The position numbers were made by a program, and so were the translations under genes. Positions 4,013 to 39,300 of a stretch of 64,000 nucleotides of DNA are shown piece after piece. Each line of letters starts with the position of its first letter. Position 1 is the first letter of the stretch. Where the stretch lies: assembly GCF_002056795.1 (NCBI RefSeq), contig NZ_CP020104.1:682001-746000 (forward strand), given 5' to 3'. Below the pieces are notes generated by a model. The model made no database searches. It was not told the DNA's origin and saw nothing but the letters and a program-made list of their open reading frames with translations. This DNA comes from Spirosoma aerolatum (lineage in GTDB: Bacteria; Bacteroidota; Bacteroidia; Cytophagales; Spirosomataceae).

Positions 4013-5017
4013 TCAGTGCAATTGTGTCAGCGTAGCCATTAAGTGATAGATCGAATCGCAACGGATGGGCTCCGATTTTTCGGTCAGCAGCCATGTGGGT
4101 TGACCGTTCGCATAATCAATCGTAATCCGGGTGGTGGCCAGGGGCTCTACGGCGAAACCACTGCGTTCCAGCGCGCGCTTCGTCCAGGTATAGGTTTCGC
4201 CATCGCCCGTCAGCGTGACGGTTCGGGTCAGTGGTTTTTCCAGCCGGAAGGCACCCGTTTGCCTGTCGAACAGAAGCCCGTCGTTGCCGAAGACCCGCTC
4301 AAAGCTGCCGTCCAGGACCAAGTCTTCCGGTGCCCCAGCCACCAGTTCACCACCTTTGGCCAGCAGCCAGATTCGGTCGGCACTGCGTAGGGCCAGGTCC
4401 AAATCATGGGTGGAGACCAGCACAGCCCGGCCGGTTTCGTGGGCCATTTTTTGGAGCAGTTGCATGACTTCGACCCGACGGGGCAGGTCCAGAAACGCCG
4501 TAATTTCATCCAGCAACATCACCTGAGGTTCCTGCGCCAACGCCCGGGCCATCATCACCCGCTGACGTTCGCCGTCGCTCAGCTCGTTCAGGCTGCGATG
4601 GGCCAGCCCATTAGCGCCAACCTGCTCAATGGCCCAGGCAATCCGCTCGTGGTCATGCGCTGTCAGTTGCCCCGACCAGTTCGTATACGGGTAGCGACCC
4701 AGACTGACGATTTCGTAGGAAGTTAATAGACCCCCGTCCACTTTTTCGGTCAAGACAACGCTGAGGTATTTGGCCAGGGCGCGGGGCGGCAATTCGTGGA
4801 CATTGGTTCCGTCCAGTTCGGCCACACCCGCCAGGGGCTTCTGCATGCCGGCCAGGGTACGTAACAAGGTCGACTTTCCGGCTCCGTTCGGGCCCAGCAG
4901 GCATACGAACTCACCCGCCCGCAGATCGAGGTTGATCTTCTCGGCGACCAAAACCGGTTGACGCCCGGTGGTTTGGTACCCAATGGTTAAGTCACGAAGC
5001 TGAAACACGTTTTTCAT
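4013..5017 (-). CDS. FecE/BtuD-like ABC transporter ATPase with C-terminal extension
   Basis: A 334-residue ATP-binding subunit of a metal-chelate importer. It has Walker A GPNGAGKST (residues 42-50), signature LSDGERQR, Walker B VMLLDEITAFLD and the H-loop STHDL. These features and the close FecCD neighbour place it in the siderophore/heme/cobalamin (type II importer) group. The nucleotide-binding domain would end near residue 255. About 75 further residues (from TRTVTLTGDGETYTWTKRAL on) form an extra domain that I do not recognise. The gene is the last of a 14-gene run and lies 12 bases after the permease gene. Confidence 0.92.
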   Translation of the reverse strand: MKNVFQLRDLTIGYQTTGRQPVLVAEKINLDLRAGEFVCLLGPNGAGKSTLLRTLAGMQKPLAGVAELDGTNVHELPPRALAKYLSVVLTEKVDGGLLTSYEIVSLGRYPYTNWSGQLTAHDHERIAWAIEQVGANGLAHRSLNELSDGERQRVMMARALAQEPQVMLLDEITAFLDLPRRVEVMQLLQKMAHETGRAVLVSTHDLDLALRSADRIWLLAKGGELVAGAPEDLVLDGSFERVFGNDGLLFDRQTGAFRLEKPLTRTVTLTGDGETYTWTKRALERSGFAVEPLATTRITIDYANGQPTWLLTEKSEPIRCDSIYHLMATLTQLH

Positions 5018-5029
5018 GGCTCGGTAGGA

Positions 5030-6121
5030 TTAGAGGGAACGCATCCGTTTGTTACGCAGAATAATCCACATCACTACGGGGGCACCCAGTACGGCGGCAA
5101 TGGCGTTGAGGTGCAGAAAATGCCGTTCCCAGGGCAGGTGTACCATCAGATCGGCGCTCATGGCAATCAATGCGCCCACGCCAATTACCCCCGGCAATAG
5201 TACCCGGTGATCGGACGTACCGAACAGGCCCCGCGTCAGATGCGGGATAATCATACCCAGAAACAGAATGGGACCGCAATAAGACGTAACCGGGGCCGTC
5301 AGCAGAACGGTAGCGGACAAAATAGCGATGCGGGTTGTCTTGAGGTTCAATCCCAGCGAATGCGCGTAGGTCTCCCCCAGCAGCAGCGCGTTTAGCGGTT
5401 TGACCAGCGCAATGCTGACGGCTAAGCCCAGCCCCACGAACAGGGCCAGGTAGGGTAGCTGCTCCCAGAACACCCCCGCGAAGCTTCCGTCATTCCAGCC
5501 CGCAAACACCTTTCCCTGCGATTGGTTGGTAAAATGCAGAATGATGCTGACCAGTCCCTGCGACAGAAAACCCAGCATCAGCCCGAACACCAACAGGGTA
5601 ACGGTATTGACGTACCGGCTAACCGACACCATCAGCAGCAACACGAGGATACAGCCCAGGGCCGACCCGGCCACAATGCTCAGGTTGCTCAGAAAGGCCA
5701 GCTGCTCCAGAAAGGCCGACCCTACGACCGAAGCCGTCGTCACGACCAGTGCCACACCCAATTGCGAACCGGCCATGAGTCCCAGCGACCAGGGTTCGGC
5801 CAGGGGATTGCGAAAGACCGTTTGCAGGTGCATTCCGGCTACGCCCAGGGCCGCCCCGCCCAGCAAGGCCGCCAGTGCGCGGGGGAGCCGCAGTTCCATG
5901 ATGATTTTGCCGGTGCTGTCATCAGCTGCGGTTCCCGTTAAGGCGGCTATGATCTCGCGAACCGGAATCGACACAGCACCAATGCTGATTTCGAGCAAAA
6001 AAACGCCGATGACCCCGAGACTAATCAGGCTAAAAACCAGCACACGACGGGGCGTTGTGGACGGGCGAATGAGCGGTTCGGGAATCGCTTTTGTTGGCAA
6101 GGGTGAAGCAGTTGATTGCAT
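5030..6121 (-). CDS. FecCD-family ABC transporter permease
   Basis: A 363-residue polytopic inner-membrane protein of the FecCD/BtuC family. The first membrane helix is followed by GAVSIPVREII, and ELRLPRALAALLGGAALGVAG is the family hallmark after it. The conserved GPILFLGMIIPHLTR segment lies in the C-terminal half. It would form the channel of a metal-chelate importer as a homodimer with the FecE-like ATPase encoded 12 bases downstream. The N-terminal cytoplasmic tail of about 30 residues is slightly long for the family. Four binding-protein genes lie immediately upstream in the same operon, so this single permease may serve several binding proteins. Confidence 0.93.
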   Translation of the reverse strand: MQSTASPLPTKAIPEPLIRPSTTPRRVLVFSLISLGVIGVFLLEISIGAVSIPVREIIAALTGTAADDSTGKIIMELRLPRALAALLGGAALGVAGMHLQTVFRNPLAEPWSLGLMAGSQLGVALVVTTASVVGSAFLEQLAFLSNLSIVAGSALGCILVLLLMVSVSRYVNTVTLLVFGLMLGFLSQGLVSIILHFTNQSQGKVFAGWNDGSFAGVFWEQLPYLALFVGLGLAVSIALVKPLNALLLGETYAHSLGLNLKTTRIAILSATVLLTAPVTSYCGPILFLGMIIPHLTRGLFGTSDHRVLLPGVIGVGALIAMSADLMVHLPWERHFLHLNAIAAVLGAPVVMWIILRNKRMRSL

Positions 6122-6145
6122 ACGGTTTTCGGGTTGATGGAGACG

Positions 6146-7387
6146 TCAGTTCGTGGTTTTTGCCCCTTTGGTCAGTAGGACTTTTTTGAAAAAAAACAGG
6201 CGGTGGTCGGGCAGGGCTTTGGGGTAAAAGATGGCGGCTAAATCTGCCAGCACCAGGTCAGGACGGACATCGGCCGTTTCGTACCAGTCGTAGGCATCGT
6301 GCTCCGGACGCACCCGCCCCTGATACGTGTAGACCCGCCCGGTTCGGTAAGCTTTGAATCCATTCAGGTACGTAGTTGGGGGCCAGCTGACATCGCTGGT
6401 GTCGCCAACGATCCAGACATCGGCATCTTTGGCCAGGGCATAAACCTGCTCGTGGGTCATCTCGACGGGGTTGTGAGGCCCCTCGTCGGCCAGTAGATTA
6501 AGCCCCCCGGCAGCAGGAAAATAACTGGCGATAAAGTCGTTGCGGTGCGCTATACCGGGGCTTTTTCGGGGATAGTAACTGAAAACGGTTGTCTGGGGGC
6601 GTTGCTGCCCATACGTCTTTGTCAACTCCTGGCATCGCTGTTCGATGGTTGTAAAGAGCGAATCGGCTTTTTGTTCGGCATTGAAAAACAAGGCGGTTAA
6701 CTTAATCCATTCAGCCTTGCCCAGAAACGAGGATTCCTGCCAGGCAAACACCGGAACGGCCCCGGTACCCAGCTGTCGGAGTTTTTCGTAGGCTTTGAGC
6801 CGCTCGTGGTCGTAGGTGTACAGAAACAGCACATCGGGTTTCAGGGTCAGAATCAGTTCGGGGGCCGGGGCACTGTGAAAACTGTAGCCGATGGACGCTA
6901 TTTTCTTTTGTTCCCAGCGTTTGCGCAGGGTCGTGTCGTAGATGCCACCGCCCCCCATTGCAATCAACGCATTGGTGAAGCCCAGCGTAGCGATCCGCAT
7001 CACGTCGCCGTCGTCATTGGCTGCGGCTGTTCGTACAGGTATCTCAATGAGCTGAGCATCGGCTAAGCTGTCGGGCAGCGTGGGTTTGGGCGTACCCCGC
7101 TGCACCAGCACGACGTACTGCGTGGTGACCATGTTGCGGTTTTCGGCCGAGCAGGATAGCCGGACCAGTTTGTAATTGCCATGATACGAAACCGAGAAGT
7201 TCCTGGCGTGGCGGACACTCGTTTTGTGGGCAAAAGCATCGGGCTGCGTTGCACCGGTACTGGTGTCGGCAGTCGCTGAAGAGCGCGACCGACATTGCCA
7301 CAGGACACCCAGCGCCAGTAACGCTACGATAAGCCGGTACGGGAGGGCTGGATTGGAGAACAAGCGTAGTTTCATTTGGGGTGTCAC
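6146..7387 (-). CDS. BtuF/FepB-like substrate-binding lipoprotein, copy 1
   Basis: A 413-residue periplasmic binding protein of the type III fold (PF01497-like). It starts with a membrane segment and a relaxed lipobox (LGVLWQC). A conserved block, ARNFSVSYHGNYKLVRL, precedes the binding domain. IASIGYSFHSAPAPELILTLKPDVLFL marks the first lobe, EWIKLTALFFNAEQKA the connecting helix, and AYDWYETADVRPDLVLADL the second lobe. It is most similar to copy 2 directly upstream (2 bases apart); copies 3 and 4 form a second pair. It presumably delivers a metal chelate to the FecCD permease. The ligand is unknown. Confidence 0.88.
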   Translation of the reverse strand: MTPQMKLRLFSNPALPYRLIVALLALGVLWQCRSRSSATADTSTGATQPDAFAHKTSVRHARNFSVSYHGNYKLVRLSCSAENRNMVTTQYVVLVQRGTPKPTLPDSLADAQLIEIPVRTAAANDDGDVMRIATLGFTNALIAMGGGGIYDTTLRKRWEQKKIASIGYSFHSAPAPELILTLKPDVLFLYTYDHERLKAYEKLRQLGTGAVPVFAWQESSFLGKAEWIKLTALFFNAEQKADSLFTTIEQRCQELTKTYGQQRPQTTVFSYYPRKSPGIAHRNDFIASYFPAAGGLNLLADEGPHNPVEMTHEQVYALAKDADVWIVGDTSDVSWPPTTYLNGFKAYRTGRVYTYQGRVRPEHDAYDWYETADVRPDLVLADLAAIFYPKALPDHRLFFFKKVLLTKGAKTTN

Positions 7388-7389
7388 GA

Positions 7390-8613
7390 CTAGTTTTGTT
7401 TCGTCAAATGGACTTTTTTGAAAAAGAAGAGCGAATGATCGGGCAGGACATTGGGATAGAAAATCGAGACTAAATCGGCCAGTACCAGATCGGGCCGAAC
7501 TTCGGCGGTCTCGTACCAGTCGTACGCATTATGTGCATAATGAACCCGCCGGTGGTAATGGTACAGTTGCCCATTTCGGTAGGCTTTGAACCCGTTCAGA
7601 TAACTGGCGGGGGGCCATTCAGAACTGGTATCGGAGGTATCAGCCACAATCCAGACATCGGCGTTGCGGGCCAGGGCGTACACTTCTTCGTTCGTCATCC
7701 GGGCCACTCGATTTGGTCCCTGGTCGGCCAGCACATTGACGCCCCCGGCCGCCGTGAGGTAGGAGGCAAAAAAATCGTTGCGGTGGGCGAAACCCAGGCC
7801 GTTGGAGGGATGAAAGCTCAGGACTTTAACCGGTGGGCGCTGTTGATGAGCTAACTGCATCAGCTTAAGGCAACGAGTTTCGATGCGGGTAAACAGCGAG
7901 TCGGCTTTGGCCTCGGCATTGAAGAACAAAGCCGTAAACTTGATCCATTCGGCTTTACCCAGAAACGAAGGCTCATCCCAGGCCAGCACCGGCACGGCCC
8001 GAATGCCCAATTGCCGAAACTGATCCAGTCCCTTCATCTGCTCGGGGTCATGGGTAAACAGAAACAGCACGTCGGGCCGTAAACTAAGCAGCACTTCAGT
8101 TTCGGGAAGGCTATGAAAACTGTAGCCCAAAGAAGCAATCCGCTTTTGCTCCCAACGTTTACGGAGTTCGGGGTCGTAAATCTCTCCGCCCCCAAGGCCG
8201 ATCAGCTTGTCGATTTCCCCCAGTGCCGTGATTCGGCTCGCATCGCCGTCTTCATTGACCGCTGCGCTTCGGACCGGTACCTCCATCACTAAAGCATCCG
8301 CCAGGCTATCCGGCAACTGGGGTTTAGGTCTGCCGCGTTGGACGAGGACTACGTACCGGGGCTTCAGTTGGTTATGCTCTTCATCATTGGAAGCCAGCCG
8401 AATGATTTTGTAGGCGTCGTGGTAACTGACCGAAAAATTACGGGCGTACCGAATCGACATCCGATTTGTCGAAATCGAATCAACGGCTGGTCCGGCCGAT
8501 TGAGTTTCGTCCCCTTTCGATTCGTCAGTCACGGTCCGGCAACCCACGGCAGCCAGCAGCAGGACCAGCACCCACGCGCTACTTAGTCGTCGTTGTTCGT
8601 TCATAGTTTCCAA
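7390..8613 (-). CDS. BtuF/FepB-like substrate-binding lipoprotein, copy 2
   Basis: A 407-residue lipoprotein (lipobox LLLAAVGC) with the same order of blocks as copy 1: YARNFSVSYHDAYKIIRL, IASLGYSFHSLPETEVLLSLRPDVLFLF, EWIKFTALFFNAEAKA, and AYDWYETAEVRPDLVLADL. The annotated start at METMNEQ overlaps the end of copy 3 by 35 bases; the internal MNEQ start would still overlap it. The overlap implies translational coupling. It differs from copy 1 mainly in the loops before the second lobe, where a ligand pocket would be expected to vary. Confidence 0.88.
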   Translation of the reverse strand: METMNEQRRLSSAWVLVLLLAAVGCRTVTDESKGDETQSAGPAVDSISTNRMSIRYARNFSVSYHDAYKIIRLASNDEEHNQLKPRYVVLVQRGRPKPQLPDSLADALVMEVPVRSAAVNEDGDASRITALGEIDKLIGLGGGEIYDPELRKRWEQKRIASLGYSFHSLPETEVLLSLRPDVLFLFTHDPEQMKGLDQFRQLGIRAVPVLAWDEPSFLGKAEWIKFTALFFNAEAKADSLFTRIETRCLKLMQLAHQQRPPVKVLSFHPSNGLGFAHRNDFFASYLTAAGGVNVLADQGPNRVARMTNEEVYALARNADVWIVADTSDTSSEWPPASYLNGFKAYRNGQLYHYHRRVHYAHNAYDWYETAEVRPDLVLADLVSIFYPNVLPDHSLFFFKKVHLTKQN

Positions 8614-9799
8614 TGAAAACGGGCTTGTGATGGGGTAATACGTCCGGGTGCAGTTGATGAATGAGGTCGGCTAAAATAAGATCGGGCCTTACCTGCCCCA
8701 GACCGTACCAATCGTAGGCGTTATGCTCGGGCTTGCTGCGCAGGTGATTGTACAGCAGCTTATCCTCCCGCCAGGCCTTAAAGCCATTCATGTAGGCTGA
8801 AGGGGGCCATTCCACCGAGGGTCGGCTACTCAATATCCAGTAATCGGCGTTGAGGGCGCGGTCGAGAAATTCTTCAACGGTATAGGCTTCGCCGATGGCG
8901 CTGGCGGGTTTAGAAAAATCTTCAAAGGGGTTAGTGGCTCCGGCGTCGCGTAACAGACGCGCTTCCACATTATTTCCCTGACAAAGCCAGAACCCTTTGG
9001 CGGCAAACTCCGCCCAGGCACAAACCGGCTTATGGGGTACGTCTTTGACTTTTTGCTTCAGTTCGGCCACGTTCCGCTCGACGGTTGCAAACAGCCCGTT
9101 CGCCTTCTCTTCCTCATTAAAGAACAAAGCCATGTATTTGATCCATTCTGCCCGGCCCAGATAGTCGATCTCGGCCCAATCGAACAACGGTGTGGTGGCA
9201 ATGCCTACCTGTCGCGATTTGTCGAGCGAGCCCGCAAAGGAAAGCCGCGATAAAACCATGAAGAAAATGTCCGGTTTCCGTTGCAGCAGCACTTCGAGCT
9301 TGGGTGGTTCAAACCAGCTATAGCCAATCTGACCCAGTTCGCCCCGCTCCGTTCGAGCCCTTACCGAATCGTTGTATGATTTTGTTCCACCTACGGCTAC
9401 CAGGCCCGGCAGCAAATCCAGCGTTTCGAGGTACGTTTCGGTACCCTCCATGTTGACGGCCACCTTTTTTACCGGCACCATGATGACCTGCGCCCTGGCT
9501 AAGTCGCCTTTCAGGGAGGGCGGTTCCGTACCGCGCTGCACCAGCACGACTACGTCTTCAATGGGGCTTTGGTCATTGGTTCCCCAGTCCCGTAAGGTGG
9601 AATTGGTCCGTACTATTTTATAATTTCCGTGATACGAGACCGTAAAGTGTCTGGCGTAGTTGACCTGGGCTTTATGCGGAAAATAGTCCTTTCCGGCTAC
9701 GTCCGATTTCGGATCGTCGGAGGTGCGCGTTGTTGTAGACTGGCAAGCCGAAACCAGCAGCCCCCCAATCAATAGCAGGAAATAGACCGTTTTTCTCAT
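8579..9799 (-). CDS. BtuF/FepB-like substrate-binding lipoprotein, copy 3
   Basis: A 406-residue lipoprotein (lipobox GGLLVSAC). It carries the shared block YARHFTVSYHGNYKIVR, then IGYSWFEPPKLEVLLQRKPDIFF, EWIKYMALFFNEEEKA, and AYDWYGLGQVRPDLILADL. DYFPHKAQV before the first block is shared only with copy 4, so copies 3 and 4 are sisters. Its ATG overlaps the stop codon of copy 4 by one base (9799), a sign of coupled translation in one operon. Confidence 0.88.
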   Translation of the reverse strand: MRKTVYFLLLIGGLLVSACQSTTTRTSDDPKSDVAGKDYFPHKAQVNYARHFTVSYHGNYKIVRTNSTLRDWGTNDQSPIEDVVVLVQRGTEPPSLKGDLARAQVIMVPVKKVAVNMEGTETYLETLDLLPGLVAVGGTKSYNDSVRARTERGELGQIGYSWFEPPKLEVLLQRKPDIFFMVLSRLSFAGSLDKSRQVGIATTPLFDWAEIDYLGRAEWIKYMALFFNEEEKANGLFATVERNVAELKQKVKDVPHKPVCAWAEFAAKGFWLCQGNNVEARLLRDAGATNPFEDFSKPASAIGEAYTVEEFLDRALNADYWILSSRPSVEWPPSAYMNGFKAWREDKLLYNHLRSKPEHNAYDWYGLGQVRPDLILADLIHQLHPDVLPHHKPVFIGNYERTTTTK

Positions 9800-11064
9800 C
9801 AGAGTTCGCCCCCCTCGACGGGGAATTTGGTGGTCTTATCGAATACGTCCATAAAGTACAGTTGGTGATCTGGTAGTAGTCCCGGATGCGTCAGCTTGAC
9901 CAGATCGGCCAGCACCCGGTCGGGCCATACAACGGCCATGCCGTACCAGTCATAGGCGTTGGCCTTTGGTTTACTGCGCTTGAAATTGTGGTACAACTGC
10001 CCGGTGCGCCAGGCCTGCATCGTGTTCAGCAACGTAGCGGCCGGGAGTGCCGCCGAGTGAATGTCGCCGATGATCCAGTGCTGGGCCGTTTTGCCTTCCT
10101 GCAAAAGTTGTTCGGCCGTCATCGGCTCACCGCTGTTCCGCAAGGGGCCGGCTGGATTGCCAAATACGTTAATCAGCCCAGCGTCGGCCATTAGCTCCGT
10201 TTCAACACTTTTCCTATGGATGATCCAGCGGTCTTTACCGGCATAATAGCCCCAGATGGCCGTGGGTTTTGCTGGCTGTGCAGCGACCTGTTTTTTGATG
10301 TCGGTCACATGCTGCTCGATGTCGGCAAAGAGGGCATTGGCCTGCGCTTCCGCGTTGAGAAACAGGGCATAGTACTTAATCCATTCGGCCTGCCCCAGGT
10401 AATGCTCTTCGGCCCAGTTGAAATCCGGCGCGGTAGGGATTCCCAGTTGTCGGCATTTGGCCAGCGAAGATTTGTAATCCAGATTGGCGAGCAGCATCAG
10501 AAACAGGTCGGTCTGCCGTTTCAGCAGCACTTCGACGTTCGGCGGTTGAAGCCAACTGTAACCAATCTGCCCGATGGCACCGGATTGGGCTTTCTGCCGA
10601 AGCGTATCGTCATACGAAATCAATCCACCGACGGCTACTATCCGATCTTTAGCACCCAGCTCTGTCAAAAAGTCTTCGCTCGATTCCAGGTTGACCGCAA
10701 TCCGCTGAGCCGGGATTGGGATAATGGTAGCTCCAGTCAGTTCGCCCGTCAGAGCCGGTGCTGGTGTTCCGCGTTGCACCAGCACCAGAACGTCCTGCTG
10801 GTCTTCGTGGTCGTTGCCCTCGTAGCTTCGCAGTTCGGCCTGTGTCTTCACCACTTTATAATTACCGTGATAAGAAACGGTAAAGTGTTTGGCATGAACC
10901 GGAACGGCTTTAGCCGGAAAATAATCGTTCTGACTCGCTGTAGCTTTTCCGCTTGAGGTCTCTCTCTGCGAAGCCGATTGGCAACTCATGAACAGCAGTA
11001 AACTACCCACCAGTAAATAGGTTGCCACTCGATTTAGTATGTACGTCGTACCGACCTTATCCAT
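9799..11064 (-). CDS. BtuF/FepB-like substrate-binding lipoprotein, copy 4
   Basis: A 421-residue lipoprotein (lipobox SLLLFMSC after a 20-residue lead). It has the blocks HAKHFTVSYHGNYKVVKTQ, IGYSWLQPPNVEVLLKRQTDLF, EWIKYYALFLNAEAQA, and AYDWYGMAVVWPDRVLADL. It is first in transcription order of the four binding proteins and lies 9 bases after the DUF3526 permease gene. VWPD replaces VRPD seen in the other three, a small change at an otherwise fixed position. Confidence 0.88.
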   Translation of the reverse strand: MDKVGTTYILNRVATYLLVGSLLLFMSCQSASQRETSSGKATASQNDYFPAKAVPVHAKHFTVSYHGNYKVVKTQAELRSYEGNDHEDQQDVLVLVQRGTPAPALTGELTGATIIPIPAQRIAVNLESSEDFLTELGAKDRIVAVGGLISYDDTLRQKAQSGAIGQIGYSWLQPPNVEVLLKRQTDLFLMLLANLDYKSSLAKCRQLGIPTAPDFNWAEEHYLGQAEWIKYYALFLNAEAQANALFADIEQHVTDIKKQVAAQPAKPTAIWGYYAGKDRWIIHRKSVETELMADAGLINVFGNPAGPLRNSGEPMTAEQLLQEGKTAQHWIIGDIHSAALPAATLLNTMQAWRTGQLYHNFKRSKPKANAYDWYGMAVVWPDRVLADLVKLTHPGLLPDHQLYFMDVFDKTTKFPVEGGEL

Positions 11065-11073
11065 CCGTAGCAG

Positions 11074-12498: not shown

Positions 12499-12511
12499 CT
12501 ATCAGCTAGCG

Positions 12512-13936: not shown

Positions 13937-13938
13937 GG

Positions 13939-16200
13939 TTAAAACTGTTTTAGGTACGTAATCTTGGCAATGCTTTGCTCGTTGCGGTACGTTTCGAAGC
14001 GTCTCAACGAGTTGTTATAGAGTTGGTTACTATTGCTGTTATACACCAGATAGAGGAAGGATAGTGGCTGGAATTCCCACGCAAAGCGGATATTCCAGAC
14101 ATCGCGGGATGCTACTGAATTATGCTGATAAAAGGACGTAAGCTGGAAGCGGGGGGTTAGCGACAGCCGAACCTCAGGCGTAATCAAATGCGTCACGGCC
14201 GATTGGTTGTCTTCGCCAACCTCCCTGAATCCATTCCGCTGGTAAGCCACCTTCACCGATACATTGGGTATGGGCGAGTAGCGGGCCTGACCTTGTAGCG
14301 TCGTTAGTTGCCCATTGTAAAAGGAGCCAAATTCGAGTTGCGTCTGCACCGAAAACCGCTTCGACAAATCCGAATCATACGAGAATCGGTACCGGGTGTA
14401 GTAATACTTGCCGGTCGGGATGGTGATGCCCACGATGGGAAATGGCTCATCGACGACCTGCCAGGTAGGAATGACATTGCCCGTCAGCCGGTTGCCCCGA
14501 TTAGCGATGAGCCAGATCGGAAAAATAGTAAGCTCGGCTTGTTGAAATTTACCATCTGAGGCCCGATGGTAGGCATCGAGGTAGGCGCCAGGGTCCATTT
14601 GCCGCATGAACTTGGGTCGCCAGCGCGGACGGATAATGTGATACGCACCGATGTTGTTGTTGATCAGGTTAGACCCATACACGAACCCCATCCGGGGATT
14701 GTAGTCTTTGGTAATAATGGACTGCACCAGAAAGGCGTACCAGTTATTGTTGCTGAAGATAAATTTGCTGAGCGCCGTAAAGCCGTCGCCACCCGCCCCC
14801 GATGTTTGGGATTTGGTGACCATGAAATTCCAGCTGAACGGGTCTTTGATCCGAATAAAACCATCCGCCGAAAACGTGGCATTGGTGACGGCTGGTTTGC
14901 CAAACCCGGCTTCGCTGCTGTTGACGGTGACCATGCCCCCAAACCGATTTTGTTTGCCCACGTTGCGGCTGTAGCGCAGCACGCCAAAATGCGTTGTAGC
15001 CGTTTGCGTTGCGTCGGATTGACGCTGACGGACCAGTAGCCCGGCGATGTTCTGGGTTAAGTTCCGGCTAACCAGCCGCAGGCCCGCATCCAGCGGAATG
15101 GGTGTACCATCGTCGGACAGCCCGATTTTACGGCTGAAAAAGGGTTGGTTGAAGTCGTCGCCCAGGTTGAACAGCGTGGCATTTTCCAGAAAAAACTGCC
15201 GCCGTTCGGGGAAAAGCACCGAGAACCGTGTCAGGTTCTGCACCTGCCGATCCACGTCGGCCTGGGCGAAGTCGGTATTGAGCGTCAAATCCAGTACCGT
15301 ATGCGGGGTAATGGCCCACTTGATTTCCCCACCTATCTTAGGGGCATACGTATCAGACACTTGTTTGCCATCGACAAACGTTCGTTTGTAATCGGTCAGC
15401 AGGTAGGGTTGCACGCGTACATTCACCGACGGCGTTGGGGGTTCAATGCCTTTGAGCAGGCCTGCGTAATTCATGCGGTAGGCCGTAAACGCCCGTGGAA
15501 ATGGCGACCACGACGATTGTTCGCCTATACGGCGGGTACGTCTCACAAACTGAATGCCCCAATCCTGCTGTTTGGCGTTGGGCGGTCCGAGCTTAGGGTA
15601 GCGCAGGGTAGCCCAGGGAATCTGCATTTCGGCCACCCAACCCGAGTCGGTCCGGGTGGTGCGTACTTTCCAGAAACCATCCCATTCACGGTCGAAGAAG
15701 GTATCGTCAAAGCATAACAGATCGCGTTGGGCACCGTAGGGGTTCGTCTGAAAAGCAATGGCGTTGCGTCGGTCCAGAAACGGGTCGATGCTGACCCCAA
15801 CGAGATCGTAGTTGAAGAAGTCGAAATCGCGGATTAGGTCGGGTACGCGCACGGCTTTTTTACCCAACGAATCAGGGCAGAAAAAGCCAAAATAAAGGTT
15901 CCGGTCATTGTACAACACTTTAACCTCGGTATCGAACGCCACTTTTCCGCCCTGATCGGGAAACTGCCGGAAAAAACCGGTGGCGGGTTTGGCCAAACGC
16001 CAGACGGGCTCATCGAGCCGACCATTGATGAGCAGGTTCTCCGAAATTTTCAGCCCGGTAATTTCTTTGGGCGGATTTTCCGGCGCGAAAACCGTGCCAT
16101 CCTGCGCCAATAAAGAGCCTCCTAAGATTGCATTGATGATTGAGCCGCAGAAGAGCGTGACTATCCGGTTACGATATCTGTTCAACCACTCTTTCATCAT
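13939..16200 (-). CDS. DUF5916 outer-membrane protein with CBM9-like N-terminal domain
   Basis: A 753-residue protein with a signal peptide (cleavage near SLLAQDG). The N-terminal half has a carbohydrate-binding-9/DOMON-like domain beginning LLINGRLDEPVWRLAKPATGF. The DUF5916 region then runs through VGVSIDPFLDRRNAIAFQTNPYGAQRD and SVLFPERRQFFLENATLF. The C-terminal half is a predicted beta barrel ending in KITYLKQF, with the terminal Phe usual for outer-membrane barrels. DUF5916 proteins are known in Bacteroidota but have no settled function. Its place between two permease pairs suggests an outer-membrane partner for the ABC-2 systems; that is inference. Start could be the first or second Met. 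Confidence 0.82.
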   Translation of the reverse strand: MMKEWLNRYRNRIVTLFCGSIINAILGGSLLAQDGTVFAPENPPKEITGLKISENLLINGRLDEPVWRLAKPATGFFRQFPDQGGKVAFDTEVKVLYNDRNLYFGFFCPDSLGKKAVRVPDLIRDFDFFNYDLVGVSIDPFLDRRNAIAFQTNPYGAQRDLLCFDDTFFDREWDGFWKVRTTRTDSGWVAEMQIPWATLRYPKLGPPNAKQQDWGIQFVRRTRRIGEQSSWSPFPRAFTAYRMNYAGLLKGIEPPTPSVNVRVQPYLLTDYKRTFVDGKQVSDTYAPKIGGEIKWAITPHTVLDLTLNTDFAQADVDRQVQNLTRFSVLFPERRQFFLENATLFNLGDDFNQPFFSRKIGLSDDGTPIPLDAGLRLVSRNLTQNIAGLLVRQRQSDATQTATTHFGVLRYSRNVGKQNRFGGMVTVNSSEAGFGKPAVTNATFSADGFIRIKDPFSWNFMVTKSQTSGAGGDGFTALSKFIFSNNNWYAFLVQSIITKDYNPRMGFVYGSNLINNNIGAYHIIRPRWRPKFMRQMDPGAYLDAYHRASDGKFQQAELTIFPIWLIANRGNRLTGNVIPTWQVVDEPFPIVGITIPTGKYYYTRYRFSYDSDLSKRFSVQTQLEFGSFYNGQLTTLQGQARYSPIPNVSVKVAYQRNGFREVGEDNQSAVTHLITPEVRLSLTPRFQLTSFYQHNSVASRDVWNIRFAWEFQPLSFLYLVYNSNSNQLYNNSLRRFETYRNEQSIAKITYLKQF

Positions 16201-16233
16201 GGCATTAGCAATCGCTATGTGTTTCTTATTCGC

Positions 16234-16935
16234 CTACACCGTTTGCAGATAAATAGCTTCCAACTCGTTGGCCGTCAAGTCACTGGCCGACAGCGATTCG
16301 ACCAGGTGGCCCGCCCGCATGATGCCGATGCGCGTGCCCACTTCGCGGGCCCGGAAAATATCGTGCGTCGCCATCAGAATGGCCGTACCGGCCCCTGCCA
16401 GAGTCGTCAGGATTTCTGAAAACTCGTTGCTGGCTTTGGGATCGAGGCCGCTCGTGGGTTCATCGAGCAGCAGGGCTTTGGCCTGTTTAGCCAGCGCAAT
16501 GGCAATGCCCACTTTCTGGCGCATGCCCTTCGAGAACGTACCTACCCGCTTGGCGTGGGCTTCGGTCTGGAGGCCGGCGCGACTCAGCAGCCCGTGCAGT
16601 TCATCGGTGGTGTGCCGAAAACCCGCCAGTTGGGCAAAAAAATCGAGGTTTTCCAGGCCCGTCAGGTTGGGGTACAGCATGACCGTTTCGGGCAGGTAGG
16701 CCAGAAACTTCTTGGTCTCCTGCGGATGCTCGGCCACAGTCAGTCCGTTGATCAGCGCCTGCCCGGAGGTGGGTTGCAGAAAGCCCAGAAACAGATTGAT
16801 GGTCGTGGTTTTTCCCGCTCCATTCTGTCCTAACAGACAATAGATTTCGCCCGGCTGAACGCTTAGGTTTAGTTTGTCGAGGGAAGGGGGCTGACCCGGA
16901 ACGTACTGCTTGGTTAACTCAATAGCTTGTAACAT
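16234..16935 (-). CDS. ABC-2 type transporter ATPase (CcmA/NosF-like)
   Basis: A 233-residue ATPase with Walker A GQNGAGKT (residues 36-43), signature FSKGMRQK, Walker B ALLLDEPTSGLDP and switch His in MATHDI. This is the drug-export/NosF-like subfamily, distinct from the FecE-like ATPase at the operon end. The gene lies 15 bases after the type A permease of pair 2 and 33 bases before DUF5916. It is the only ATPase of this kind here, so it probably energises pair 2 and perhaps also pair 1. Confidence 0.93.
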   Translation of the reverse strand: MLQAIELTKQYVPGQPPSLDKLNLSVQPGEIYCLLGQNGAGKTTTINLFLGFLQPTSGQALINGLTVAEHPQETKKFLAYLPETVMLYPNLTGLENLDFFAQLAGFRHTTDELHGLLSRAGLQTEAHAKRVGTFSKGMRQKVGIAIALAKQAKALLLDEPTSGLDPKASNEFSEILTTLAGAGTAILMATHDIFRAREVGTRIGIMRAGHLVESLSASDLTANELEAIYLQTV

Positions 16936-16950
16936 ACGGCATTGGGGCGT

Positions 16951-18303
16951 TTACAGGTGATAGATTGTTTGGCGAAACCGGAACCAGCCCAGACTCGCAA
17001 AGAGCGTACTAAACAGAACCAGCGGTCCCCAAACCGACCCGGGATGAATCGGGGCTTCGTCGGCGAAGGTATCGACTTTGAAAGCCGTCCACTTCTCGGC
17101 CAGGGCCGGTGCATTCGTAAAGATTTTGGGGTAGAAATACAGCCGTAGCTTCTCGTGAAAGCGGGCCGTATACTCCAGAAACCGGAGCTGATTGCCCAGA
17201 CCCGAGCGGGCCAGTTCGCCAAGTTGTAGCTGGGTATGCAGCGTAGGAATGAATTGAGCGATGGTCCGGCTGGCCGTTTCGCGCTGCTGTAGCTTTTGCC
17301 GCAATTCGCCTGACTGCTCCGCCGACTCATCGTCGCCCAACTGCTGCATGGCGTAGTACCACCGCCAGTCGAAGGGCATGGCCACGGTGGGTACCTGCCG
17401 GAACTGCGGGTAGTGCGCGTAGAACTTCTCGACCGTTGCGGTTTTGTCCGTATCCCATTTCTCGTGGTAACCCTTTCGCTGGGCCAGCGTAGTGGCCTGT
17501 GCTTCGGGCACGGGGTAGCGGGCGGTGATGTAGTTATTGACCCCCGTTGGCAACACAATGAGCAGGACCAGCCAGATACCCAGTAGCAGCATGGCGTTGG
17601 TGCTCGACGAACGTTTCAGCGAGACCACCCAGAAACAGACGCTGAACCAGAACAGGATGTAGCCCGCCGAAGTACCCAGGAAAAGCCAAAACGTACTATC
17701 CATCGGGATACCCAGTACCGGAACGGCCAGACCGATGATGATCCCTAACACCGCCAGCAATACGCCCAGCCGAATCAGAAAAAGCCCCCCAACAAACCGC
17801 AGCAGGTGTCGGCTTTGCACAGCGACAATCGACCAGGTGCCGTTCTCTTTTTCGGCCGAAATAATCGAATAGGTGAAGGCAATGATCAGCAGCGGGAACA
17901 GATAGATCAATACAAAACTGAAATCCACATTGCCCAGCAGCAGGTTGGCGGGGTTGGTCAGATCGGCATCATATTGCTGCCCTTCGAGCGCCCGGATCGT
18001 TACGCTCTGTATGGACGCATTCACGTCGCGCTGCCCGATGGCCAGGGCCGTAAGCGGGCGGGTTTGATTGACGACTGAAAATTTGAGATAATACAGCAGC
18101 AACCCCAGATCGTCGTGGTGAATGGCCGCCTGCCGGGGAAAATCGGTTTGCTGAAACTGGACAACGTCGGCAACAGCCTGCTGCTGACGCTGATCGAATT
18201 GTTTCCCCACAAACAGCGAGATGATGCCAACGACCAGCAAAAAAACAAGCCCAATTCGGGTGCCACCGGCACGCATAAACTGAATGAACGCAAGTCGGAT
18301 CAT
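16951..18303 (-). CDS. ABC-2/DUF3526 permease, type A copy 2
   Basis: A 450-residue membrane protein. It has an N-terminal helix (GLVFLLVVGIISLFVG), a periplasmic domain of about 100 residues, and the core VDFSFVLIYLFPLLIIAFTYSIISAEKENGTWSIVAVQ. Further helices include NAMLLLGIWLVLLIVLPTGV, then a soluble segment and a last helix. It is paralogous to the protein at 11074-12498. Its start overlaps the end of the type B permease by 4 bases, the usual arrangement for subunits made in equal amounts. It should form a heterodimer with that protein. Confidence 0.85.
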   Translation of the reverse strand: MIRLAFIQFMRAGGTRIGLVFLLVVGIISLFVGKQFDQRQQQAVADVVQFQQTDFPRQAAIHHDDLGLLLYYLKFSVVNQTRPLTALAIGQRDVNASIQSVTIRALEGQQYDADLTNPANLLLGNVDFSFVLIYLFPLLIIAFTYSIISAEKENGTWSIVAVQSRHLLRFVGGLFLIRLGVLLAVLGIIIGLAVPVLGIPMDSTFWLFLGTSAGYILFWFSVCFWVVSLKRSSSTNAMLLLGIWLVLLIVLPTGVNNYITARYPVPEAQATTLAQRKGYHEKWDTDKTATVEKFYAHYPQFRQVPTVAMPFDWRWYYAMQQLGDDESAEQSGELRQKLQQRETASRTIAQFIPTLHTQLQLGELARSGLGNQLRFLEYTARFHEKLRLYFYPKIFTNAPALAEKWTAFKVDTFADEAPIHPGSVWGPLVLFSTLFASLGWFRFRQTIYHL

Positions 18304-19751
18304 AAAGCGGTTAAGGTTTTAGTGAATCGCACCATAACAAACCACAGCAGCCCCGCCCAGAAGACAAACGCCAGCAGCGAGATGGCTTCGTGCCCGAATA
18401 CGCTTTCGACACCCGGCGACTGGTAGCTGAAGTCTGGCACCTCCTCCCAGTGTTTCCTGTCGATTTGGTAGGGCTTGTCGGTTGGGCCGAGCTTCTTATT
18501 GCTGATGAAATGAATCTGCAAGTCGTTCATTTTTTGCGCCATCTCGTAGCGGTACTGTTCGGCCTGCCGCTGAAAATCGACGTAACTGGCAAAGTCCGTG
18601 CCCGACAGTGCCATCGACAGGTTCCGAATGGCCAGGTAGGGGTCCACAAACGCCATCGCTTTGGCGAATCGGTTCTGCCGGTCGTAGATCGATAGCAATC
18701 GCCCAAAGTGGTCGTTGTAGAGATGGGCACTGATTTTCTCCCCCTCGGCCATCACAAACCCGCTGTAATTGAAGGGCAATTGCCCCACCGAATCGACCCC
18801 GTACGCCGTCAGCAGCGAATCTTTCAGCCCTTTGTAGTGCGGGTCGTTGGGGTTGTGGCTGTCGCCTTCTTTGAGCACATCGGCCTGAATGTCGGCCAGA
18901 AACCGGGCCTTCGAGGGGGCCGGATACAAATACGACCCCAGGGCCTGCGACGCACGGGGCAACACCAGGGTGAGCATCAGCCAAAGGCCAATGAGCGACA
19001 CCAGGGCCGTTTTGGCCGTTTTGCTCCGGGCCGACACCAGCACGGCGATGACGCAGAAGAAAGCCAGATACAGGAAATAAGCCCCCATCAACAGCAACAG
19101 CCGGATCGTCTGATCAGCGCTGACCCTTCCTCCCTGTAACCCGAACCACAGCAAACCGGTGACCACCATCACCGGGCCATACAGGCTGAGCATCACGGCC
19201 ATCAGCCCCAGGCTTTTGCCCACCAGCAGTTGCCCCCAGCTGACGCCCTGACTCAGCAGCAGCTTCAACGTACCCGTTTCGCGGTCGGTGGCCACAGTGC
19301 CGAAGCCCAGAAAAAACAGCATCAGCGGCAATAGCAGTTGTAACACCATCGCCATGCTGATCTCGCCGAACCGGAGCAGTCCCGTTGAAAAACCCGCTTC
19401 CGAGAAGTTGACGCTGTTTTGCTTGTGGGCTTCCAGATAAATGGTGTTGCCCAGAAAACTTTCCATTCCGAAATCGAACACACTCAGTGGGGCTTTGGGC
19501 CGGAAGGCAAAATGGCCGTAGTGCGCCATCCGGTGCGGGTGTTTGTCGGGGTTAGACAGCCAGTCCTGCCGGGCCTGTTGCTGGTACTTCCGGCCCGTTT
19601 CGTTCTGCTGCTGCAGGCTTACCCAACCCGTTACGGCTGCGTAGGCCAGTAGCAGCCCAATCCCGATCAGGAGGCCAAAAACCGCCCGGTTTTTAAAGGC
19701 CGTTGACCAGACCTGGCCCGCAATAAGTTGTTGCGTTTGTAGCATGATCAC
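18300..19751 (-). CDS. ABC-2/DUF3526 permease, type B copy 2
   Basis: A 483-residue membrane protein with the motifs of the type B copy at 12512-13936. These are HPHRMAHYGHFAFRPKAPLS and DFGMESFLGNTIYLEAHKQN in the extracytoplasmic domain, then FGEISMAMVLQLLLPLMLFFLGFG and RETGTLKLLLSQGV in the permease core. It begins directly after the TonB receptor gene with no gap. The first Met (MIMLQTQQ) and the internal MLQTQQ are both possible starts. The transport direction is unknown; ABC-2 proteins usually export or extract from the membrane. Confidence 0.85.
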   Translation of the reverse strand: MIMLQTQQLIAGQVWSTAFKNRAVFGLLIGIGLLLAYAAVTGWVSLQQQNETGRKYQQQARQDWLSNPDKHPHRMAHYGHFAFRPKAPLSVFDFGMESFLGNTIYLEAHKQNSVNFSEAGFSTGLLRFGEISMAMVLQLLLPLMLFFLGFGTVATDRETGTLKLLLSQGVSWGQLLVGKSLGLMAVMLSLYGPVMVVTGLLWFGLQGGRVSADQTIRLLLLMGAYFLYLAFFCVIAVLVSARSKTAKTALVSLIGLWLMLTLVLPRASQALGSYLYPAPSKARFLADIQADVLKEGDSHNPNDPHYKGLKDSLLTAYGVDSVGQLPFNYSGFVMAEGEKISAHLYNDHFGRLLSIYDRQNRFAKAMAFVDPYLAIRNLSMALSGTDFASYVDFQRQAEQYRYEMAQKMNDLQIHFISNKKLGPTDKPYQIDRKHWEEVPDFSYQSPGVESVFGHEAISLLAFVFWAGLLWFVMVRFTKTLTAL

Positions 19752-22214
19752 TTAAAATCGGTACGTCAGCGTCAGCATGGTATTGCGGGGGGCACCGGGG
19801 AACAGCCGCAGGTAGTTCTGAGCACCAATCCAGTACGTAGTATTGAATACATTATTCATGTTCAGGGCCACCTGCACGTTGGTTCGGGCGGGCGTATAAT
19901 ACAGTGCCAGGTCGAAGAGCGTATAAGCGGGCACCTCAAAGTCGCGTGTAAACCAGGGAATCTTACTGCCGCTGTATTGCATCCCAAATCCAATACCCAG
20001 ATCACTCAGGGACGAGTTGGGCGTGAAGTTGTAACGCGTCCAGAGGTTGCCGCTGTGAACGGGGGTGTTCTGCTTACGAGCGCCAATCAGACTGGCTTCA
20101 TTGTCCTGCACAATGATGGCATCGATGTAGCTGTAAGAGGCATTGATTTGCCAGTTGGGCAACAGATAACCCGCTACGTCCATCTCGAAGCCCCGGCTGC
20201 GTTCGGCTCCCCGCGTCACCAGTGAGTCGGGGTAGGTGGGTAGGTTGGCATTCAGCAGCAGGTTCCGCTGGTTGATCTCGTAGACGGCGGCATTCAGACT
20301 GATGCGGCCCCCAAAAAGCTGGGCTTTCAGCCCTATTTCTTTCAAATCGCTGCGGAGTGGTTCGAATAGATTGGCTGACTTGGCGGTGTTGTAAAAACTG
20401 CCGGTGTTGGGTAGCAGCGTTACCGTATTCGATTGCCCCTGAAAGCCTTCCAGATACGTACCGTAAACATTCAAATTAGGGCGTACCGAATAGGTGATGC
20501 CAACGCGGGGCAGCAGGGCTGTTTTCGTAAACGACAGTTCCCCCGGCGACTGGTAGTTGGTGATGTCACGAAACCATTCCTGTCGTAAGCCGAGCAGGAT
20601 CAACAGCTTGTTCCAGCGCAGTTGCTCCTGCACGTAGATGGCATTGGTGGTCGTCAGGGCGGCTGGCAGCGGGGTACGGGCATTCAGTACGTAATCATTA
20701 ACATTCCGAATGGTGTAGGTTGGGTTATTCAGATCAAAATAGCTCACGTTTGGCCGGGGGAGGGTTACGCCCCCAACCGTGATAGTCTGGTAATTGGCTG
20801 CGTTAGCCGGGACAAAGGAGCCCGCTACCGTACCGTTGGTAAGCAGAAATCCCCGCGCCGAATTCTGCCCTCCGCCTTTGAGTTTATGCCAGTCGGACAG
20901 GTCATAGCCCACCAGCAGATCATGCTGGGCAGCTCCCGTGTTGAACGTGGCATTGAGGTAGGCGTTCAGGTTGTCGACGTTCCAGAACTGTTGCCGCTGC
21001 ACAAACTGCATACCTGCCAGCGAGGTAACGGGTTTGTTGGTCAGGTCAACCGCAAAGGCATTGGTAGTCCGGTGCTCCTGCAAATCTTCCTGCCAGGTTT
21101 GCTTCATGTACGACGCATTGAGGCTGATGTGGTCGGTAAACTTGTGCGTCAGATTGCCCATAATGATGAGCTGCTTCGACTGAAAGAAGTCGTTCGGAGC
21201 TCCCAGATTCAGACTAATCGGTGTACTGTTGAGGTCCGTTTTTCCGGCTACAGCCCCGAAAATGGGTTGCCCCCGGTCGAGGGTACCTGACTGGTTGCTG
21301 TAAATCAGCTCGGCGTTCAGCGCCGTGCGGGTATTGGGGACATAGGAAAACGAGGGCGAGAACAGCACCGAGTTGTTGCGAACCAGATCGCGGTAACTAC
21401 GGGCTTCCTGGTAAGCCCCATTGACGCGGTAGAGCAGCGTTTTTTGGGCATTCAGTGGTCCCGTAAAATCCAGCGTGCTTCGCAGCGTGCTGAAACTCCC
21501 CACACCCAGGCTTGCTTCCTTTCGGTTGACGGCCAGCGGCTTTTTGGTCACCAGATTGATACTGCCACCCGGATCGACGGAGGAAAACGACGCACTCGCC
21601 GGGCCTTTGAGCACCTCCACCCGTTCGATGTTGGTCGTCAGGGGTTGCAGGAAATAATACTGCCGGGTGCGCATGCCGTTGATGATCTGGCCTTCTTCGT
21701 TCTGACTGATACCTCGAATGGTGTACTGGTTATAAAAGCTGGCGGGGGCAACGCCACTGACAATCTTGACCGCATCGGCCAGTTGAAACGCCTGCCGGTC
21801 GGCCATCAATTCTTTCGTAACCGTCCCGATCGACTGAGGGACATCTTTGTTGAGCGCAGCAATCTTGGTAGCCGAAAAGGAGTAGTCACTGGTATAGTCT
21901 TTGGCGACGCGGCCCACTACCTCCACCGTTTGCAGCTCGGCGGTTTCGGGCACGAGTTCCAGGGTAAAAAAGCGGTCGCGGGTTTTCGCGGTGAGGGTTT
22001 TAAACCCGACAAAGGACACCTGTAGGGTGCCGCTGCCGTTGAGGATGAATTGCCCACTGGTATCCGTTACCGTTCCCTGATTAGTGGTTAGTAGTTTGAC
22101 GGTAGCACCCACAACGGGATCGCCCGTAGTGGCATCGACGATTTTGCCCGTGATGGCCTGTGCGTTTAGGCAATAGGAAACCAGTACAAGTAGTACGGTA
22201 AATACTTGCTTCAT
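19752..22214 (-). CDS. TonB-dependent siderophore-type receptor
   Basis: An 820-residue outer-membrane receptor with a signal peptide (ending CLNAQA). A carboxypeptidase-like domain (ITGKIVDATTGDPVVGATVKLL, about residues 20-95) is followed by the plug. The plug motifs DVPQSIGTVTKELMADRQAFQLADAVKIVSGV, YTIRGISQNEEGQIINGM and ERVEVLKGPASASFSSVDPGGSINLVTKKPL are those of the FhuE/FoxA/FpvA siderophore-receptor group. The 22-strand barrel ends in LTLTYRF. Siderophore-type receptors normally bring in a ferric chelate. Here a Zur-type operator heads the operon, so another metal chelate is plausible. It lies 28 bases after the His-rich lipoprotein gene. Confidence 0.92.
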   Translation of the reverse strand: MKQVFTVLLVLVSYCLNAQAITGKIVDATTGDPVVGATVKLLTTNQGTVTDTSGQFILNGSGTLQVSFVGFKTLTAKTRDRFFTLELVPETAELQTVEVVGRVAKDYTSDYSFSATKIAALNKDVPQSIGTVTKELMADRQAFQLADAVKIVSGVAPASFYNQYTIRGISQNEEGQIINGMRTRQYYFLQPLTTNIERVEVLKGPASASFSSVDPGGSINLVTKKPLAVNRKEASLGVGSFSTLRSTLDFTGPLNAQKTLLYRVNGAYQEARSYRDLVRNNSVLFSPSFSYVPNTRTALNAELIYSNQSGTLDRGQPIFGAVAGKTDLNSTPISLNLGAPNDFFQSKQLIIMGNLTHKFTDHISLNASYMKQTWQEDLQEHRTTNAFAVDLTNKPVTSLAGMQFVQRQQFWNVDNLNAYLNATFNTGAAQHDLLVGYDLSDWHKLKGGGQNSARGFLLTNGTVAGSFVPANAANYQTITVGGVTLPRPNVSYFDLNNPTYTIRNVNDYVLNARTPLPAALTTTNAIYVQEQLRWNKLLILLGLRQEWFRDITNYQSPGELSFTKTALLPRVGITYSVRPNLNVYGTYLEGFQGQSNTVTLLPNTGSFYNTAKSANLFEPLRSDLKEIGLKAQLFGGRISLNAAVYEINQRNLLLNANLPTYPDSLVTRGAERSRGFEMDVAGYLLPNWQINASYSYIDAIIVQDNEASLIGARKQNTPVHSGNLWTRYNFTPNSSLSDLGIGFGMQYSGSKIPWFTRDFEVPAYTLFDLALYYTPARTNVQVALNMNNVFNTTYWIGAQNYLRLFPGAPRNTMLTLTYRF

Positions 22215-22242
22215 GAATTGAGGTTGTATGGTTAAAAATAAC

Positions 22243-22680
22243 TTACTTCATCACCGCCGTCAGCCGGGCTTCGATCTGGCGGATATTGTTGAGTGTTTCT
22301 CGCTGCAAATCCCGCATCTGATCGGCTGGCAGGTCCTTCAGCGTCGCATCATGATGGTGATGATGCTCACCCTCGCCATGATGGTGGTGCTCATGGGGCA
22401 TACCCGGCACTTCGACCAGATTCTCTTCCCATTCCTCAAAAGCCGTTTTCAGACTATCGAGCGTGGCAACCCGGGCCGGGGCATCCGGCAGTTTCTGCGC
22501 CAGAATTACTTTTTTCAGGGAGTCAATCTGCTCAATTTTCGGCTCTACCGTTTCCTGAATCTCGGTCGCCTGCTGGTGATACCCGGCGGCTTCTTCCATC
22601 AGGGGATCTTTCTTATCGGACGACGAACAGGCAGACAGGCAGGCCGTCAGGAGCAATACAGGGGCGAACGAGGGTTTCAT
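22243..22680 (-). CDS. His-rich metal-binding lipoprotein, first gene of the 14-gene operon
   Basis: A 145-residue lipoprotein. The chosen start at 22680 gives MKPSFAPVLLLTACLSAC, a good lipobox with Cys18. A longer frame upstream would bury the signal and cross the operator, so it is rejected. Residues 35-90 are helical and probably coiled-coil. A His cluster, HEHHHHGEGEHHHHH, spans residues 96-110 and a short helix follows. Such clusters bind Zn, Ni, Co or Cu. I do not recognise a named family. With the TonB receptor gene 28 bases downstream, it may collect metal in the periplasm. A Fur-type palindrome lies 36 bases upstream. Confidence 0.82.
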   Translation of the reverse strand: MKPSFAPVLLLTACLSACSSSDKKDPLMEEAAGYHQQATEIQETVEPKIEQIDSLKKVILAQKLPDAPARVATLDSLKTAFEEWEENLVEVPGMPHEHHHHGEGEHHHHHDATLKDLPADQMRDLQRETLNNIRQIEARLTAVMK

Positions 22681-22715
22681 TTGGCTTATGATTGGGATTT
22701 TGAAGCAATTTACTG

Positions 22716-22738
22716 TTTTTGCAACAATGATGCAAAAA
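22716..22738. promoter_or_regulatory. Zur-type palindromic operator A (His-rich lipoprotein operon)
   Basis: An 11-1-11 inverted repeat with one mismatch: TTTTTGCAACA, central A, TGATGCAAAAA. It is 36 bases upstream of the minus-strand ATG at 22680. On that strand TTTG is followed after 20 bases by TAAATTG, close to the Bacteroidota promoter pattern, so a bound regulator would block the promoter. The core matches five other sites in this window. Confidence 0.72.
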
Positions 22739-22763
22739 TATGAAACAGGAGAATTGCACAAAT

Positions 22764-22794
22764 AAGCCCCTGCCTCGTGTTGAAGCAGGGGCTT
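22764..22794 (-). terminator. Terminator of the DUF4374-like gene
   Basis: A 10-bp perfect stem (22764-22773 with 22785-22794) and an 11-base loop lie 20 bases past the stop codon of the minus-strand gene at 22815. It separates that unit from the operator-controlled 14-gene operon that starts immediately after. Confidence 0.7.
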
Positions 22795-22814
22795 GTTTAC
22801 AGGCATAAGCCTGA

Positions 22815-24014: not shown

Positions 24015-24049
24015 GGATTGACTGAGAAAAAGTAGATGAATCAGGTTGG

Positions 24050-28709: not shown

Positions 28710-28735
28710 GCGAGTAGAACCTGATTGATTGTAAA

Positions 28736-28750
28736 TGCAACTATGTTGCA
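28736..28750. promoter_or_regulatory. Zur-type palindromic operator B (COG0523 copy 1)
   Basis: TGCAACT, central A, TGTTGCA forms a 7-1-7 inverted repeat with one mismatch, 26 bases upstream of the minus-strand COG0523 start. On that strand TTTGCAACATAGTTGCA is the full core. It is one of two operators in the 139-base divergent spacer to the TonB receptor gene. Confidence 0.75.
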
Positions 28751-28794
28751 AATATAATTTTTTTCGGTCAGCTTTCACCGGCAGGATAAAATTT

Positions 28795-38502: not shown

Positions 38503-38547
38503 AAAGCTACAGCTATTTGCAACATTGTTGCAAATAGCTGTAGCTTT
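38503..38547. promoter_or_regulatory. Zur-type operator E: 45-base perfect palindrome with back-to-back promoters
   Basis: Arms 38503-38524 and 38526-38547 are perfect reverse complements around a central T (22-1-22). The core TTTGCAACATTGTTGCAAA is the best copy of the motif in the window. On the minus strand TTTG (531-534) and TAGCTTTG (502-509) are 21 bases apart, a perfect -7 element for the ZIP gene. On the plus strand TTTG (516-519) and TAGCTTTT (541-548) are also 21 bases apart. The palindrome thus holds one operator and two opposing promoters. Transcribed, it would also form a strong hairpin ending in T's. Confidence 0.8.
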
Positions 38548-38604
38548 TTTTATAACCGCTTGTAACGTGCAGGTGTGTAGTTGGTTAGCTGTATCGTGAA
38601 ATCA

Positions 38605-39278: not shown

Positions 39279-39300
39279 GTCTTTCTAACTCTTCCTTCCC

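Follow-up and report, generated by a model that had tools for sequence, protein, structure and literature searches.

In the 64,000-nucleotide window of Spirosoma aerolatum DNA analysed here (positions 682001–746000 of the 7.96-Mb single-contig genome), we find an operon of 14 minus-strand genes that most probably serves to import a metal chelate during zinc starvation under repression by Zur, the chelate being scavenged rather than self-made. The link to zinc is strong and the import of a chelate is likely; the identity of the cargo as zinc (or cobalt), the scavenged origin of the chelate and a NosFY-like role for some of the components we infer. Uptake of a metal chelate had been put forward in a preliminary description of this DNA, and that proposal stands as regards the Zur assignment, the operon and the chelate-type importer, as the Zur-box genes of the genome, the linkage seen in other families and a modelled binding protein support them; zinc itself as the cargo is presumed.

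Between 22680 and 4013 the genes follow one another at junctions of 12, 24, 2, −35, −1, 9, 13, 2, 33, 15, −4, 0 and 28 bases (−35 to +33; Table 1), as the preliminary description had claimed. Separate internal promoters are not evident, since promoter-like sites (5 against 9.4 in shuffles) and terminator-like sites (22 against 21.8) show no excess across the operon span. The parts list also held: four permeases of the DUF3526 family with one NosF-like ATPase, a FecCD permease with a FecE-like ATPase and four Peripla_BP_2 proteins, a DUF5916 protein (the preliminary description calls it a barrel), a TonB receptor and a His-rich lipoprotein. The N-terminus of this last, MKPSFAPVLLLTACLSACSSS, reads by eye as a probable lipoprotein signal, and weak relatives of the protein (29–34% identity) lie near Zur boxes in three of the loci read (L019, L142 and L147). 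The true start of g5 is probably an internal ATG. The C-terminal extension of g2 is also found in five relatives or orthologues; the genome's own HmuV-like ATPase is without it. Two M14 carboxypeptidase genes (305–3901), which we exclude from the operon, start 111 bases downstream of it; on a Hymenobacter plasmid (L170), too, an M14 gene comes after the DUF3526 genes.

Table 1. Features of the operon and of its surroundings (positions within the window)
Feature	Positions	Strand	Remarks
g2, FecE-type ATPase	4013..5017	-	C-terminal extension of ~80 aa
g3, FecCD permease	5030..6121	-	220 bits
g4, FecB-type binding lipoprotein	6146..7387	-	Peripla_BP_2
g5, FecB-type binding lipoprotein	7390..8613	-	Peripla_BP_2
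g6, FecB-type binding lipoprotein	8579..9799	-	Peripla_BP_2
g7, FecB-type binding lipoprotein	9799..11064	-	Peripla_BP_2
g8, DUF3526 permease, B type, module 2	11074..12498	-	profile match and tree
g9, DUF3526 permease, A type, module 2	12512..13936	-	profile match and tree
g10, CBM9-like/DUF5916 protein	13939..16200	-	domain match
g11, ABC-2 type ATPase, ABCA/NosF-like	16234..16935	-	single gene of its kind in the operon, against two permease pairs
g12, DUF3526 permease, B type, module 1	16951..18303	-	profile match and tree
g13, DUF3526 permease, A type, module 1	18300..19751	-	
g14, TonB-dependent siderophore-type receptor	19752..22214	-	NCBIfam 278.8 against a cut-off of 223.5
g15, His-rich lipoprotein, 145 aa	22243..22680	-	operon head gene; 11 His
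Zur box TTTGCATCATTGTTGCAAA	22718..22736	-	one mismatch to TTTGCAACNNNGTTGCAAA; overlaps TAttTTTG
Hairpin stretch	22752..22815	-	−33.9 kcal/mol, z −6.6; 3′ of g16, parts g16 from the operon
g16, XusB-like lipoprotein	22815..24014	-	4.6e-13, residues 213–387 only; has relatives next to binding proteins (G512, G359)
g17, XusA-like TonB receptor	24050..26422	-	2.8e-71 to chain A of 9gbc (XusAB complex entry); relatives in G512 and G359
g18, FAD oxidoreductase	26552..27481	-	relatives in L053 and G359
CobW-family GTPase, ZigA-like	27498..28709	-	559 bits against a cut-off of 600 (on 27498–28706)
Zur box	28734..28752		two mismatches; upstream of the CobW gene
ZIP zinc transporter	37638..38396	-	regulon member
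Two exact Zur boxes	38516..38623 (38516 and 38605)		flanked by the ZIP and LolD/MacB genes
LolD-type ATPase and FtsX/MacB permease	38652..40557	+	behind the Zur boxes

The box at the head of the operon bears out the Zur-type operator first proposed. It overlaps an element, TAttTTTG, which we take to be a promoter element of the Bacteroidota −7 type, so that a repressor bound there would block the promoter. Allowing up to two mismatches to TTTGCAACNNNGTTGCAAA, the genome contains 13 such places against 4 for the reversed pattern, and TTTGCAN7TGCAAA occurs at 6 places against 1 for the reversed control. We read the genes linked to those of the 13 boxes that lie within the first 2.5 Mb. Boxes at 28734 and 28795 lie between the ZigA-like CobW gene and a TonB receptor; that at 679439 precedes DUF3299-like, Fur-family, alkaline phosphatase and CobW genes, near which a further TonB receptor has a box of its own (675369); that at 352375 precedes MerC-like, ThrS, Fur-family and GTP cyclohydrolase I (FolE) genes. 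Together the box-linked genes are of the kind usual in zinc-starvation regulons (for comparison, see the tables of regulons in the accessible part of PMC6103462), and the operon has its operator in common with zinc-homeostasis genes of the same genome. The two Fur-family genes (L016, 345–360 kb; L017, 672–684 kb) both have a Zur box ahead of them, the first in the company of ThrS and FolE, the second in that of CobW; they are likely to be autoregulated Zur copies. Within the window we also see a TonB receptor with weak similarity to ZnuD (28849–31359) and an M43 protease and small envelope proteins (31504–34374), with a Zur-box-like site (two mismatches) at 32964.

FecCD permease, FecE-type ATPase and Peripla_BP_2 protein are all present, as in type II importers of the FecBCDE/BtuCD kind. 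The nearest folds to the modelled binding protein are those of siderophore and heme binding proteins, and both the receptor and the binding proteins are members of siderophore families. Two FecCD genes were found in the genome, g3 and one in another locus, which we take, by our own reading of its gene order (HmuT, HmuU, HmuV, HmuS-like), to be a heme locus.

When named genomes were scanned with the four binding proteins and the best 80 of 577 confirmed loci taken, close loci among these 80 were only one from Balneolaceae and one from Saprospiraceae (48–50%), the other 78 lying at or below 31%; in a sample of the phylum, 6/395 genomes, the present one included, match at E 1e-45. One match (G332) was left out of the relatives' count because its coordinates equal those of the Balneolaceae genome of L053, and with this repeat merged six other genomes remain as relatives, among them G223, of the same family as the named Balneolaceae genome. 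In all six, the genes for the binding protein, FecCD and FecE lie beside DUF3526 or DUF5916 genes, against none of the 78 distant control loci, with relatives read over 20–41 kb and controls over 3–21 kb only; the relatives were picked by binding-protein similarity, and neighbouring genes played no part. Taken singly, DUF3526, DUF5916 and CobW genes each occur in 5/6 of the relatives' loci, LolD–MacB in 3/6, and XusA-like, XusB-like and FAD oxidoreductase genes in 2/6 each; the corresponding counts for the 78 distant loci are two for CobW, one for LolD–MacB and zero for the rest.

Within the organism's own family, where the preliminary description had proposed to look for conserved synteny, the binding proteins occur in 1/222 of the genomes. 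A protein search lists 163 clusters at E 1e-60 among the 8000 candidates scored, under names such as Ulvibacterium, Algoriphagus and Balneola, and horizontal spread seems likely. Counting against our reading, the loci with these genes are devoid of Zur boxes in five of the six relatives; the closest box of the named Balneolaceae genome lies ~14 kb past the locus, and the Saprospiraceae contig has four. A search for palindromes upstream of the operons of the box-less relatives found no common alternative site. Near the binding proteins of three relatives is a flavin NAD_binding_9 protein (L053:8756–9937, L160:9019–10191, L165:11804–13000), with weak similarity to lysine/ornithine N-oxygenases in two of the three; possibly it is a chelate-modifying enzyme. 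Two relatives have a glyoxalase–cytochrome c–rhodanese fusion near the binding-protein genes (L053:15860–17914, L163:6076–8178).

Genes that recur with the operon in relatives extend past 4013–22738, into 22815–28709 and 37638–40557. Immediately upstream, g17 and g16, both outside the 14, resemble by sequence XusA and XusB, described as a xenosiderophore pair of Bacteroides in the accessible part of PMC13142918; as in that gene pair the receptor adjoins the lipoprotein, the match of the latter being confined to residues 213–387. Together, CobW–g18–g17–g16 may be a further Zur operon with the box at 28734 at its head and a gap of 129 bases between g17 and g18.

Turning to the remaining half of the operon, the solved relatives of g14 include FhuA, the enantio-pyochelin receptor, CntO and FoxA. 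A TonB receptor found together with an ABC-2 ATPase and a pair of ABC-2 permeases reproduces the make-up of ZnuK–ZnuGHI, and a predicted NosY-like permease fold with a NosF-related ATPase that of NosFY; by sequence, g11 is closer to ABCA than to NosF, and Pfam matches none of the 14 genes to a NosD-type family. PF12040 occurs in 23/148 genomes of the order, counting the present one; within that sample it is absent from two more members of the genus. Two sets recur in the 26 loci that we read: in one, a g14-type receptor is joined by NosF ATPase and the A and B subunits of DUF3526; the other is NosF with A and B, several also with DUF5916, CobW or DUF3299. A Zur box stands somewhere in the locus in 18/26 cases, a per-locus tally that we prefer to the automatic distance from box to run head (10/34 listed runs), which is too low, as the ORF picker loses genes that overlap and misplaces starts. 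In a tree of 84 DUF3526 proteins, several on long branches, A and B subunits separate, and on either side module 1 forms a supported branch of 14 rows. A plasmid of Spirosoma oryzicola carries module 1 in identical gene order, at 68–83% identity, with a box 267 bases upstream. Among A subunits, His73 is conserved in 26/27 sequences and His77, Glu107 and His109 in 27/27.

The preliminary description knew of no published system built from these parts; within the open-licence literature this holds for the whole set, which no title or abstract found on Zur, TonB and Bacteroidetes describes, but each half has a published precedent (PMC4176598 and PMC11481552, each as far as its accessible text goes). 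In Caulobacter crescentus, according to that part of PMC4176598, Zur represses znuK–znuGHI, and the receptor ZnuK is required in zinc starvation; like our operon, this system sets a Zur-repressed TonB receptor beside an ABC-2 ATPase and two ABC-2 permeases. It differs in that znuK and znuGHI seem to share one operator lying between them, the two sites listed being reverse complements, and that, so far as described there, the second permease pair, DUF5916 gene, binding proteins and FecCDE of our operon have no counterpart. Of 14 control genomes, Caulobacter alone has DUF3526, in proteins that we infer to be ZnuH and ZnuI. The accessible text of PMC11481552 reports that the Zur-regulated PA2911–PA2914 of Pseudomonas aeruginosa carry pyochelin-cobalt; here too a TonB receptor and a siderophore-type ABC importer share one Zur-regulated operon, of four genes and, so far as described there, without ABC-2 pairs, DUF5916 or paralogous binding proteins. 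With NosDFY–NosL (PMC7558416, PMC11573801, both in part) the operon has in common the NosY-like fold and the NosF-related ATPase, and the lipoprotein metal carrier NosL is a possible parallel to g15; relative to the system as those parts present it, each pair in our operon consists of two different permeases with long extra periplasmic parts, NosD is missing from the Pfam matches, and the operon is linked to Zur and has no NosZ client. Zinc starvation induces Vibrio zrgABCDE (genes for DUF3299, an ATPase and a permease; accessible part of PMC9817125), which resembles other Zur-box genes of our genome, outside the 14-gene operon; we judge the LolD–MacB pair, by its domains, to be like zrgCB and PA4064–PA4065. 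In the open-licence literature we found no paper on DUF3526 or DUF5916, nor on COG0523 with Zur in Bacteroidetes.

How these parts might work together can be set out as follows. Zur-Zn would sit on the box over the promoter, and the operon would open as zinc falls, to judge from the shared box. The siderophore-type receptor g14 would bring the chelate into the periplasm, where the four FecB-type lipoproteins may bind variants of it and feed FecCD–FecE, which would import the chelate whole. The two DUF3526 pairs, with the one NosF-like ATPase gene between them, would act as energised machines of the NosFY type, their large periplasmic parts, in which His and Glu are conserved, moving or stripping metal, and g15 could serve as carrier in the place of NosL. 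More specifically, and tentatively, we propose that DUF3526 A/B and the NosF-like ATPase form an ATP-driven periplasmic zinc machine, whose putative metal site (His73/His77/Glu107/His109) takes zinc either from the chelate that has been imported or from g15, the His-rich lipoprotein, then hands it on, the freed or whole chelate passing through FecCDE.

Several other explanations have to be weighed. Given PA2911–PA2914, for whose Zur-regulated receptor and importer pyochelin-cobalt transport is reported alongside a Zur-regulated MacB exporter (PMC11481552, in part), the zinc-starved cell might instead bring in a cobalt chelate (or corrinoid) that spares zinc; a LolD–MacB pair behind Zur boxes is likewise present in the window, and g3 is the only FecCD gene found outside the heme locus. 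We nevertheless think this rather unlikely. The BtuC and BtuB models fall far below cut-off, and the scan of the window returned no cobalamin riboswitch at the gathering threshold, a tRNA being the sole match; the leader thus lacks, at that threshold, this mark of BtuBFCD-type cobalamin uptake. Nor is the operon the family's general B12 route, because the binding proteins occur in so few of its genomes. It is also doubtful that the DUF3526–NosF pairs export a self-made metallophore or other envelope molecule, with only the FecCDE half importing: NosY is the top structural match of the DUF3526 permease by about 5 Z units. No biosynthesis gene was recognised in the operon, and the nearby metallophore synthase that the preliminary description thought worth seeking was recognised neither in the window (Pfam, most genes; 41–51 kb is taken up by Kdp potassium genes) nor in 672–684 kb. 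The genome has no IucA/IucC (NIS siderophore synthetase) gene, with control matches in E. coli and Haloferax, and no match to the PF10100 opine dehydrogenase (CntKLM type), for which the control genomes gave none either. Its sole condensation-domain gene belongs to a PKS–NRPS locus (L174, 3.296–3.313 Mb) that adjoins polysaccharide genes and has no Zur box within 17 kb; this locus also contains a class III aminotransferase and a thioesterase.

That the operon merely gathers independent zinc-regulon pieces under one promoter, ZnuGHI-like parts moving free zinc and FecCDE being unrelated, would fit the finding that several genomes, and plasmids too, have module 1 but not FecCDE, and the separate lineages of g8–g9 and g12–g13 in the tree; we consider it improbable in view of the linkage of the importer genes to DUF3526 or DUF5916, found in every close relative and in no control. 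Ordinary uptake of an iron siderophore under Fur would suit a receptor and binding proteins drawn from siderophore families, but seems to us very improbable indeed; iron/Fur control we rejected because the same box stands at ZIP, ZigA-like, ThrS and FolE genes.

The operon is thus real, the kinds of system that it joins, zinc and metallophore acquisition, are known, and their whole combination is new within the open-licence literature. Zinc acquisition in Bacteroidota seems little described, and the accessible part of a review of Zur (PMC6103462) contains no word beginning ‘Bacteroid’; the locus gives a Zur box for Bacteroidota that can be tested. Through the predicted NosY-like fold, the unnamed family DUF3526 may be tied to metal handling, and should the DUF3526–NosF pairs strip periplasmic metal, the role of the exporter-like ZnuGHI ‘ABC-2’ proteins in zinc uptake would become directly testable. 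The locus suggests zinc piracy by theft of chelates, with several binding proteins in parallel, and the recurrence of parts of the set together in distant relatives suggests an undescribed way of scavenging zinc; if the proposal is true, the zinc machine and FecCDE would form a conserved, hitherto undescribed three-layer zinc piracy system of Bacteroidota.
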